A stretch of 49,828 nucleotides of DNA from Candidatus Gastranaerophilales bacterium (GTDB lineage Bacteria; Cyanobacteriota; Vampirovibrionia; Gastranaerophilales; Gastranaerophilaceae), in the NCBI GenBank assembly GCA_944326615.1, contig CALVEO010000009.1, forward strand, positions 1 to 49,828, given 5' to 3'. Below, in pieces: positions 4,826 to 7,997 of the stretch. Numbering within the stretch: position 1 is the stretch's first letter; the number at the start of each line of letters is the position of its first letter. Made by a program: the position numbers and the translations under genes. The notes beneath the pieces were generated by a model. It was not told where the DNA came from, ran no database searches, and saw nothing but the letters and a program-made list of their open reading frames with translations.

Positions 4826-7471
4826 TTACAAAATATCAAGCGGATCTACATCCACAACCATTTTAATATCTTTGGGCAGGGTAATTTTATTTAAAAAATT
4901 TGAAATAAATTTGTGTCCTTTTTCGTCAAGTTTATTTTTTATAAGAATTTGAAAACGATACTGGCTGTTAATTCTTTCAATAACGCATGGACTTGGACCG
5001 AGAACCTCAAGGCGCTCTGATATCCCGAATTTTTCAATCATTGTACAAAGCCGCAGGGCAATTTCCTGTGCGGATTTTTCAGCGCGAAAATTATTTTCAG
5101 AGCTTAAAACAAGTCTTATTATCTGGCTGAACGGCGGGTAATCAAATTCCTCGCGCGCCGCAATTTCTGTATCGTAAAATTCTCTGTAATTCTGAGATTT
5201 AGCACTTTCAAGCGCATAAAAATCAGGATTATAAGTTTGAAAAAACACTTTTCCAGAAAACTCGCCTCTGCCGGCACGCCCTGCAACCTGTGTCAAAAGT
5301 TGAAACCCCCTTTCAGATGCTCTGAAATCAGGCAGGTTAAAACTTGCATCAGCAGAAATTACCCCGACAAGGGTAACATTCGGGTTATCCAAACCTTTCG
5401 CAATCATCTGGGTACCGACTAAGATATCAATATCTCCGCGTTGAAATTTTTCGAGAAGCCTTATATGTTCACCTTTACGCACAAGAATATCGCTATCAAT
5501 ACGTTCAACATTATTTTCCGGAAAAAGTTCTTTTACATACTGCTCGATTTTCTGTGTTCCCGTACCACTGTTTTTAAAGGCATCCGAGCCGCATTCGGGG
5601 CAGACATCAGGAAAATATTCCATGTGATTGCAGTAGTGGCATTTAAGCATTTGGTCTTTTGAATGCCATATCATAGGAATTGCGCAATTAGGGCATTGGA
5701 TTACATGACCGCAGGCCTGACACTGTGTGAATGTTGAAAATCCGCGTCTGTTTATCAGCAAAATTACCTGCTGTCCTTTTGACAATGTTTCTTTAATTTC
5801 CGTCTGCAAAGGAACGGAAATGACATTTCTGTAAGCTGCTCTGCCATGTTCCTGCATGTTTATAACCGTTACAGGAGGAACTTTTGCATCGTTATAGCGT
5901 TTTTTCAGTTCAAAAAGATTTCCTGAATTTACTGCCCTGTAATATGTTGAAATATCAGGAGTTGCAGAGCCTAAAAGAAGCGGGCAGTTATGAAATTGGG
6001 CAAGTTTTCTTGCCACAACACGCGCATCATAACGCGGTGATGGCGTTGTCTGTTTATATGCACTTTCATGTTCTTCATCAATTATTATTAAACCGATATT
6101 TTTTAGCGGAGCAAATACGGCAGAACGCGCTCCGGCAAGAATTTTTATTTCATTTTTGTAAAGTTTCTGCCATACATCGTACCTTTCGCCGTCTGATATA
6201 CTGCTGTGCCATATTGCAACATCTTTTGTGCCGAATTTTTTTGCAAGACGTTTGGTAAGCTGAGATGCAAGCGCAATTTCAGGAGCAAGAAATAGCACAT
6301 TTTTACCGGCTTTTATTGTATCGTCAATAAGTTTGAAATAAACTTCCGTCTTTCCTGACGCTGTTACGCCATGTAGAAGAAGTTCGGCGGCTTCACCCCT
6401 CACCCCATCCCTCTCCCGCAGGGGGAGAGGGTGATATTGTAAGTTTTCCAATATACTATTCAATACTCCTTCTAAATTTTCATTTACTTCGTTATTCCAA
6501 AATCTTAAAACTTTAAATCCCTTATCTTCCAAATATTTTTGACGATTCAGGTCTTTTTTTATATTTTCATCTTCATTATGTTGTCCGCCATCAAGTTCAA
6601 TAATAAGTTTTTTTTCATAACATACAAAATCAGCTATATAATTATCAATAGCTTCCTGTCGTCTAAATTTACAGTCATTTAGCTGTCTGTCGCGAAGATA
6701 ATACCATAACAAATTTTCAGTATCTGTCATATTTTTACGAAGCTCTTTTGAATAGGCCAGAGACTCTTTTGTATAGTAATGAGAAGCTTTCAAAGCTCCC
6801 TCTCCCCCTGCGGGAGAGGGATGGGGTGAGGGGTTTAATCCTATCTTATTTTTGATGCCTTCATAAACAGCTTTTTGATCGCCTGACAATTCAAACAAAG
6901 GCTCGCGCTCAGTTATATTTAGAATATCAAGAGGATTTCTATACAATTCTTCTTGAATAAATTTTACACACCCTGCCTGTTCCAGTTTTTTTATTGTTGC
7001 ACGTGTTGTTTTTGCGTATTTTTCAAACAAAATAAGCGGCATTTTGCCTGATTTTTCAAGCAGTTCAAGCACCTGTATCTGCCGTTTTGTCGCCCCGTCA
7101 AATTTCACAAATTCCACAAGCTGCTCTGTTTTGGAAGCCTTTTCAATGAGTTTCATCGGAATTGCAGCGTTCAATACAGTAACTAAATCACAGCAATAGT
7201 AATTGGCGACCCATTCAAGAAGTTTTAAATAATCTAATGAAAAAAGCGGGGTTTCATCAAGAATTTTGTTAATCTTTTTAACCTTAAAATCCCCGGGTAA
7301 ATAATCGGAAAACCCGACACAAAAAGCATTAATCAGCCCCTGTCTGCCAAAAGGGACAAGCAGAGCCTGTCCGATTTGAATTTTATCTTTCATATCATCG
7401 GGGATAAGATAGCTGAATGTCTTAACCCCGAGAGCTTTTATATTAACAAGAGCTGATGCGTATTTACTCAA
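4826..7471 (-). CDS. priA: Primosomal helicase PriA with an inserted DUF559 nuclease-like domain
   Basis: Replication-restart 3'-5' helicase. Order: N-terminal DNA-binding region, Walker A GVTASGKTE (Lys374), DEEH box, GSATP motif, a zinc-binding region with four CxxC pairs, then the C-terminal helicase half (VGTQMIAKG, QVAGRAGR). Normal PriA proteins are about 730 residues; this one is 881. The excess is a 146-codon block (about residues 213-359) placed before Walker A, where the family has only a short linker. The block is a DUF559 domain with ENLLWYYLRDRQL, ADFV, IELDGGQH and LRFWN motifs, flanked by peptides encoded by 36-bp inverted repeats. The frame is open throughout and the flanking PriA sequence looks intact. 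The start is TTG with AAGGAG upstream. Whether the fusion acts as one protein is unknown. Confidence 0.95.
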   Translation of the reverse strand: MSKYASALVNIKALGVKTFSYLIPDDMKDKIQIGQALLVPFGRQGLINAFCVGFSDYLPGDFKVKKINKILDETPLFSLDYLKLLEWVANYYCCDLVTVLNAAIPMKLIEKASKTEQLVEFVKFDGATKRQIQVLELLEKSGKMPLILFEKYAKTTRATIKKLEQAGCVKFIQEELYRNPLDILNITEREPLFELSGDQKAVYEGIKNKIGLNPSPHPSPAGGEGALKASHYYTKESLAYSKELRKNMTDTENLLWYYLRDRQLNDCKFRRQEAIDNYIADFVCYEKKLIIELDGGQHNEDENIKKDLNRQKYLEDKGFKVLRFWNNEVNENLEGVLNSILENLQYHPLPLRERDGVRGEAAELLLHGVTASGKTEVYFKLIDDTIKAGKNVLFLAPEIALASQLTKRLAKKFGTKDVAIWHSSISDGERYDVWQKLYKNEIKILAGARSAVFAPLKNIGLIIIDEEHESAYKQTTPSPRYDARVVARKLAQFHNCPLLLGSATPDISTYYRAVNSGNLFELKKRYNDAKVPPVTVINMQEHGRAAYRNVISVPLQTEIKETLSKGQQVILLINRRGFSTFTQCQACGHVIQCPNCAIPMIWHSKDQMLKCHYCNHMEYFPDVCPECGSDAFKNSGTGTQKIEQYVKELFPENNVERIDSDILVRKGEHIRLLEKFQRGDIDILVGTQMIAKGLDNPNVTLVGVISADASFNLPDFRASERGFQLLTQVAGRAGRGEFSGKVFFQTYNPDFYALESAKSQNYREFYDTEIAAREEFDYPPFSQIIRLVLSSENNFRAEKSAQEIALRLCTMIEKFGISERLEVLGPSPCVIERINSQYRFQILIKNKLDEKGHKFISNFLNKITLPKDIKMVVDVDPLDIL
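6396..6833 (-). mobile_element. 438-bp inverted-repeat element carrying a DUF559 domain, in frame in priA
   Basis: Perfect 36-bp inverted repeats (6396-6431 and 6798-6833) bound exactly 438 bp, which is 146 codons. Each repeat is itself partly palindromic (CCCTCTCCC...GGGAGAGGG). On the coding strand the first is read as PSPHPSPAGGEG and the second, in another phase, as HPLPLRERDGVRG, so both avoid stops. The interior encodes a complete DUF559 domain with PD-(D/E)XK-like residues. No target-site duplication is obvious. I infer a mobile or once-mobile cassette. Confidence 0.8.
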
Positions 7472-7776: not shown

Positions 7777-7846
7777 GTGAAGAGTGAAAAAGTGAGAAGT
7801 GAAGCGCAAAAGTAATACTTTTCACTCTTCACGTTTCACGCTTCAC
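7777..7846. repeat. Inverted GTGAAG-type repeat cluster
   Basis: GTGAAGAGTGAAAA (7777-7790) is perfectly inverted at 7819-7832. GTGAAGCG (7799-7806) is inverted at 7839-7846. The arms are interleaved and built from related GTGAA units. It lies between the PC4-like gene start and dapB. Another short palindrome, CTACCCC...GGGGTAG, follows at 7914-7938. Confidence 0.6.
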
Positions 7847-7997
7847 TTTTTATTCTAGCACAGAAAAATTTTTTTATGATAGAGTTAAGAATATATCTAT
7901 AATTTTTAAACAGCTACCCCAATCCCTTAAAGGGGTAGGGGGTGAAAAATAAATTCAGGATGACAGGAAACAAAAAATTAAACTAAGGAGAAAAATT

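Follow-up and report, generated by a model that had tools for sequence, protein, structure and literature searches.

Why does the priA gene of a member of the Gastranaerophilales encode, within a replication restart helicase, a nuclease-like domain framed by perfect inverted repeats, and does this domain serve PriA or reside in it as a guest? The window, that is, the whole 49,828-nucleotide stretch analysed here, is contig C9 of a 1.96 Mb genome in 78 contigs. A preliminary description had proposed that a DUF559 cassette bounded by perfect 36-bp inverted repeats is inserted in frame into priA, and the repeats were borne out: an inverted-repeat search of the window returned arms of 37 nt each, 100% complementary and 366 nt apart, one pair beyond the length claimed, and the 438 bp (146 codons) delimited earlier at 6396-6833 form the core of the inserted span (Table 1). 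As had been described, the reading frame is stop-free across both arms and open throughout.

Anatomy of the cassette in priA

Table 1. Positions in the window of priA and of the parts of the cassette that it carries
Feature	Positions	Strand	Details
priA ORF, replication restart helicase, 881 aa with insert	4826..7471	-	TIGR00595, 615 bits
Whole inserted element	6395..6834	-	440 bp between outer ends; linker preceding Walker A
Arm, gene-upstream end	6798..6834	-	outer tail ACCCCTCACCCCAT (6821-6834) and 9-bp hairpin (6798-6820)
Arm, gene-downstream end	6395..6431	-	outer tail (6395-6408) and 9-bp hairpin (6409-6431)
DUF559 nuclease domain (YcjD/Vsr-like PD-(D/E)XK)	6437..6760	-	family-invariant residues all kept

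Pfam placed DUF559 (PF04480, E=2.2e-40) at residues 238-345 of the 881-aa protein, between the PriA domains (PF17764 at 16-105, DEAD at 363-509, Zn_ribbon at 593-616, and PriA_C at 780-877); PriA of relatives measures about 722-765 aa outside the linker. The order within the arm is ACCCCTCACCCCAT-CCCTCTCCC-GCAGG-GGGAGAGGG, which single-strand folding resolved into a 14-nt tail and a 9-bp hairpin. A 22-base arm probe (≤3 mismatches) had two matches in the window, both of them the arms, with 0 expected by chance, and the inverted repeat scored 37, while shuffled flanks never exceeded 10. DUF559 is the sole gene between the arms, where Pfam detected no DDE, Y1 or serine transposase. A second DUF559 gene of the same genome stands alone upstream of an apparent threonine synthase gene, likewise inside inverted palindromes, with the outer tail CCCTCACCCGAATTTC.

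Chance or an assembly artefact, the latter already considered in the preliminary description, was ruled out by the shuffles, by the occupation of the same linker in 14 other genomes, and by finished chromosomes, given that cyanobacterial chromosomes assembled as single contigs (4.7-5.8 Mb) also carry in-frame relatives of the cassette. An intein or intron was rejected as well, with no splicing domain (Pfam, NCBIfam) and no intron RNA family detected at the cassette.

Other repeats were observed nearby. An intergenic palindromic repeat (GTGAAAAAGTGAGAAGTGAAGCG...CGTTTCACGCTTCACTTTTT) lies upstream of priA at 7784-7861, and a solo C/G-rich palindrome, CTACCCCAATCCCTTAAAGGGGTAGGGGGTG, resembling a degenerate arm, lies at about 7914-7945, close to where the next gene begins. 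On other contigs of this genome (L219-L238), the intergenic sequence is a patchwork of repeats from several families, among them the ATTGCGAGCGACAGAATGGAGCGTCGCAATCTC, GGCAGGAAGGCAAGC and AAGGTAGGAAGATAG types, frequently adjacent to CCCTC palindromes.

The priA linker among relatives and the spread of the insert

Fifteen priA genes carry the cassette at the same linker, the window's and those of 14 other genomes. Among the 29 PriA proteins of the window's genus, DUF559 is present in four, many have short linkers of 9-11 residues, some of which may themselves be old scars, and about twelve hold other in-frame repeats; eleven further occupied alleles are distributed over five other genera. In-frame repeats of the GGCAAGAGGGCA...TGCCTTCCTGCC type were seen in the PriA linker of G005, G006, G008, G009, G015, G016, G018, G020, G028, and G031 (L052-L073). 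Since unrelated in-frame repeats share this linker, it is a place where translated repeats land in general.

Comparison of priA among relatives, which had been proposed as the way to find empty sites, yielded near-identical relatives that either lack the cassette or bear its scars. The priA flanks of the occupied G168 are 97-98% identical to those of the unoccupied G178, G072, and G282, and the same holds for the occupied G128 and for G068, whose scar has lost the core by internal deletion and kept both outer tails and flanks. In G075, exactly one arm is left, as if both arms had recombined, and G053, G179, G078, and G012 have other cassette remnants in the linker. Given these unoccupied relatives, an ancient architecture in which all related PriA proteins carry the domain without repeats does not describe the locus. 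No target-site duplication, whether a fixed TA or another, was recognised by eye in the occupied priA alleles, the comparisons being between species; the cassette boundaries in priA are likewise read between species rather than within one.

The distribution of the 15 occupied alleles over the PriA tree forces at least 11 changes, of unassigned direction, on strongly supported branches. The occupied alleles of the window's genus sit on four separate branches, and their DUF559 domains form one clade (100/96). Between G000 and G029, the inserts are 96.0% identical in DNA versus 86.0% and 81.6% for flanking priA, with the shift at the insert borders, and dS is 0.139 for the insert versus 0.81 and 1.12 for the flanks. 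Similar contrasts were found for G089-G057 in genus 9 (0.197 versus 0.99 and 2.08) and for pairs in genus 3 (0.035 versus 0.32 and 0.42; 0.051 versus 0.29 and 0.31; 0.090 versus 0.47 and 0.50). An insert dS 5-10 times below that of priA on both sides, as in several species pairs, is a homing-like pattern, and a homing-like process would fit such sharp-edged, recurrent transfer at one site better than the transfer of priA blocks. The earlier suggestion of homing-endonuclease-like copying of the element has gained support from this contrast and from the relationship of its nuclease to I-Bth0305I, described below.

The contrast is absent for G168-G123 (insert 1.01 versus 0.87 and 0.78), and at most DUF559 loci of the genus divergence is similar to that of the flanks, indicating that long vertical residence is common. 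Same-clade DUF559 copies were also found at unrelated loci (L026/L043 and L032/L093). Judging from sequence comparison, the cassette is mobile and appears to move independently of priA, which, together with the unoccupied relatives, agrees with the original view of a mobile cassette that sits in the PriA linker and is translated through without splicing motifs.

The DUF559 family, its palindromes and its hosts

The fold comparison used a model of the DUF559 domain (pLDDT 90.6); alignment-free AlphaFold prediction of the 881-aa fusion gave a pLDDT of 36. The domain model matched Neisseria NGO0050 (Z 16.6, rmsd 0.8), the catalytic domain of the homing endonuclease I-Bth0305I (Z 11.8, rmsd 2.9), and the mismatch endonuclease Vsr (Z 10.3, rmsd 2.3), which are the predicted nearest solved relatives of the cassette nuclease, in agreement with sequence profiles (E 1.3e-5 for DUF559 against I-Bth0305I, PDB 3r3p). 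Residues E15, D44, E55, D57, and H61 are invariant across the DUF559 alignment, and not all of them face identical residues in 3r3p. Although its fold is related, the domain scored 17.6 bits with the Vsr profile TIGR00632 (NCBIfam), below the cut-off of 97.85, and PHROGs and PADLOC gave weak homing-endonuclease or unknown matches. PDB sequence matches to unrelated toxin B chains were weak and short, and were set aside as chance. The DUF559 domain is under purifying selection, with dN/dS mostly 0.07-0.15. A passage in PMC1189080 assigns E. coli YcjD to the PD-(D/E)XK superfamily, one in PMC12907096 describes Caulobacter VsrA (DUF559) as needed for DNA-damage/SOS signalling when the methyltransferase ScmA is absent, and one in PMC9403480 has applied the label EDxHD to a DUF559 gene.

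Twenty of the 33 genomes of the window's genus have DUF559, in one to eight copies each, and 41 of the 47 copies have flanking inverted repeats scoring above all 60 shuffles, with perfect arms of up to 78 bp at L082. A search of 84,980 species genomes using the DUF559 alignment gave 80 loci, the best-scoring relatives of the query, in Gastranaerophilales, several proteobacterial classes, Omnitrophota, Nitrospirae, Chloroflexi, Patescibacteria, and others. Of these, 68 have flanking inverted repeats above all 50 shuffles (69 less L117, an N-run), a result that describes this subfamily rather than every PF04480 protein, given that the loci are the query's best-scoring relatives. The mention, in the preliminary description, of stand-alone DUF559 proteins with similar flanks and thus of a wider family proved sound, as most of the DUF559 genes sampled lie between the same repeats. 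At the DUF559 genes of Neisseria and E. coli, the flanking repeats do not form simple inverted pairs.

The commonest arm is a CCCTCTCCC-n-GGGAGAGGG hairpin followed by YNRGGGTGAGGGG, a GGGTGAGGGG-type tail. This canonical motif flanks 77 of 127 loci versus 0 of 127 when shuffled, and where both sides match, the tails point inwards at 31 loci, outwards at 13, and in mixed directions at 12, unlike the expectation for a simple transposon end. Hairpins lie within the arms of 97 of 133 elements (3 of 133 when shuffled); given that the stems vary, with 41 distinct cores, and yet stay complementary, it is the hairpin that is kept rather than an exact sequence. The span of the DUF559 interval is fairly constant across phyla. 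The canonical motif was rare in 80 non-Gastranaerophilales genomes, probably because their arms differ, which makes that set uninformative. Four G3 runs separated by 3-nt loops make the G-rich strand, GGGAGAGGGYNRGGGTGAGGG, a motif of the G-quadruplex type, and such a motif is present in 39 of 133 arms. At L092 compared with L002, and at L080 compared with L045, the DUF559 element is reversed relative to the same flanking genes, which suggests inversion between the arms, with a possible misassembly at L092, near a contig end.

The DUF559 frame crosses both arms without a stop in 68 of the 133 elements, and remains open for at least 50 codons past both arms in 47 of the 133 clear-armed elements, a set partly selected for long frames in which GC-rich members may be open by chance. 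Pfam confirmed open-frame hosts in Mfd (L142), a UvrD-family helicase (L106), HsdM (L116, L119), HsdS (L112), MmeI (L145), PrmA (L159), and IspE (L103), as well as a C-terminal DUF559 fusion of RuvC (L130) and an alphaproteobacterial PriA (L166) with DUF559 at a second site, whose usual pre-Walker-A linker is also translated through palindrome-like sequence. In the window's genus, fused frames comprise PriA in four species, a group adjacent or fused to IspE, and an M14-type peptidase; the finished cyanobacterial chromosomes, read from sequence, add a HydF-like GTPase, a HydE-like protein, and large methylase-like proteins. A role of the PriA fusion in recognising forks, as had been suggested, found no support, given that the same cassette lies in hosts as unrelated as IspE, PrmA, HydF, MmeI, and the M14 peptidase; PriA thus looks like one tolerated landing site among many. 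As side observations, the RuvC C-terminal DUF559 of Roseomonas and Azospirillum (L130, L148) is surrounded by 47-bp perfect inverted repeats, and the distant proteobacteria Mariprofundus (L116) and Methylomonas (L119) apparently share the same insertion position in HsdM.

Solo palindromes were counted in 286 genomes of the order as matches to GGGAGAGGGYNRGGGTGAGGG with ≤2 mismatches, a single consensus by which lineages with other stems are missed. The 109 genomes with DUF559 had 1,549 matches and the 177 without it had 260 (reversed-pattern controls: 26 and 4, respectively). With two ends subtracted for each DUF559 copy, genomes with and without the gene averaged 10.7 and 1.5 solo repeats, respectively, a difference that within-genus permutation reached in 0 of 10,000 trials; in the window's genus, the mean repeats were 18.8 with DUF559 versus 0.2 without. 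At the genome level, solo repeats correlated with DUF559 (z 4.33), with RAYT presence (PF01797, z 2.44), and with an unrelated repeat (z 2.84). Given that the latter two are also associated, more weakly, general richness in repeats accounts for part of the signal. With genus fixed effects, the coefficient for DUF559 was 0.78 versus 0.29 for RAYT, and in genomes without RAYT the mean was 9.55 repeats with DUF559 versus 0.98 without. Genus 4 has DUF559 and lacks canonical solo repeats.

In E. coli, the DUF559 gene ycjD is present in about 61% of 5,426 genomes, with matching palindromes immediately downstream of it; the associated palindrome is found at 16 sites per genome (median) and may be the known BoxC family, of which 22-32 copies have been reported (PMC2267715). 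As with the cassette, a DUF559 gene here stands beside matching, genome-recurrent palindromes; unlike the cassette, ycjD does not lie between a simple pair of inverted repeats, and the alternative allele at its locus is the eefRABCD efflux operon (PMC12817139) rather than an empty site, for which reason ycjD was discarded as a clean empty-site test.

Nature of the element

RAYTs are Y1 HUH transposases, and their REP tags are GTAG or CGTC. The cassette family resembles REP/RAYT systems and REPINs in its hairpin with a conserved tail, its inverted pairs, its solo copies in the same genome, and, as in REP/RAYT, its single associated nuclease gene flanked by repeats. It differs in that this gene is PF04480, of the PD-(D/E)XK/Vsr fold, rather than a Y1 transposase (PF01797, HUH), and in that the tail is ACCCCTCACCCCAT / ATGGGGTGAGGGGT, GGGTGAGGGG-like, rather than GTAG or CGTC. 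REPs have been reported inside genes as well (PMC3733652). With the EDxHD homing endonuclease I-Bth0305I, the cassette shares related fold and sequence, site-specific persistence, and spread independent of the host gene; unlike EDxHD elements, it is not associated with an intron, an intein or a fractured gene, lies between inverted palindromes, has copies at unrelated loci, and encodes a domain of about 108 aa without an extra DNA-binding domain. Nor does it have the splicing domain of an intein. Terminal inverted repeats are common to the cassette and to classical insertion sequences or MITEs, a known transposase being found in the classical elements only. Rickettsia palindromic elements (RPE) are palindromic repeats that lie in frame in protein-coding genes and are translated, and we know of none that carries a gene. 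The cassette is likewise a palindromic, in-frame, translated insertion, and differs in that its translated insert includes a conserved nuclease; RPE-1 has been described inside a Rickettsia gene (PMC3733652). Since the cassette misses a defining feature of the REP/RAYT, homing, and RPE classes, we class it as a type of element that is apparently undescribed and that by analogy would work like a homing element with REP-like ends. No description of a link between DUF559 and inverted repeats was found in the open-access literature searched (including COG2852), although one may exist elsewhere.

In our reading, the cassette is probably a small autonomous mobile element, a DUF559 nuclease gene between inverted REP-like palindromes, each a 9-bp hairpin with a GGGTGAGGGG-type tail. 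Given that the DUF559 frame is stop-free through both palindromes, the element can sit in frame in the linker and be translated as an extra domain, so that splicing is unneeded. We infer that the nuclease would nick or cut DNA at unoccupied alleles or at related palindromes, whereupon host recombination or replication repair would copy the element, or a palindrome alone, into the break; the nuclease could in this way drive the mobility of both element and solo repeats. Deletion within or between the arms would amount to loss, leaving solo palindromes and in-frame scars.

It is rather unlikely that DUF559 is a passenger, with the palindromes moved by another enzyme such as a RAYT and the gene carried as in a composite transposon. 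The tail-in, tail-out, and mixed arm arrangements favour such a role, as do the solo repeats of some DUF559-free genomes (up to 75 copies, in G157) and the weaker association of RAYT with solo repeats. However, one gene family fills the interval across many phyla at a fairly constant span, the association of solo repeats with DUF559 is stronger than that with RAYT and persists where RAYT is absent, and the domain is under purifying selection. That low dN/dS would also be expected of a domesticated nuclease domain, useful to PriA, restriction, repair, and other host proteins, with the repeats as leftovers of ancient insertion, and many hosts do act on DNA (PriA, Mfd, UvrD-type, RuvC, HsdM, HsdS, MmeI). 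We consider domestication very improbable, as most relatives have a priA linker that is empty, bears scars, or holds unrelated repeats, IspE, PrmA, and HydF are hosts without a DNA role, and the histories of insert and host differ in dS. Hardly credible, finally, is an inert relic shuffled by ordinary between-species recombination of priA segments and retained by chance: many copies are indeed old and locus-specific and losses are frequent, but the dS drop is confined to the insert, excludes neighbouring priA, and recurs in three genera, catalytic-type residues are conserved at low dN/dS, and same-clade copies occupy unrelated loci.

Bacterial genomes commonly contain short palindromic repeats, and to our knowledge REP/RAYT is the sole branch with an assigned enzyme. 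For us it is an evenly balanced question whether the autonomous element described here extends further, with DUF559/YcjD proteins as the mobilising enzymes of a major, so far ownerless palindromic-repeat superfamily (CCCTCTCCC/GGGTGAGGG type), a second REP-like system with a Vsr-fold nuclease that spreads in part by tolerated in-frame insertion into essential proteins. If a Vsr-like nuclease does move a second branch of repeats, the annotation gap of DUF559, including E. coli YcjD, would be filled by an enzyme of mobile elements, and laboratory E. coli would allow tests of where a widespread repeat comes from. The family would also offer many examples of a third lifestyle of selfish DNA in essential genes besides introns and inteins, that of the translated, tolerated domain, and many proteins annotated as 'PriA-DUF559', 'Mfd-DUF559', or 'HsdM-DUF559' fusions would be insertions rather than designed enzymes.
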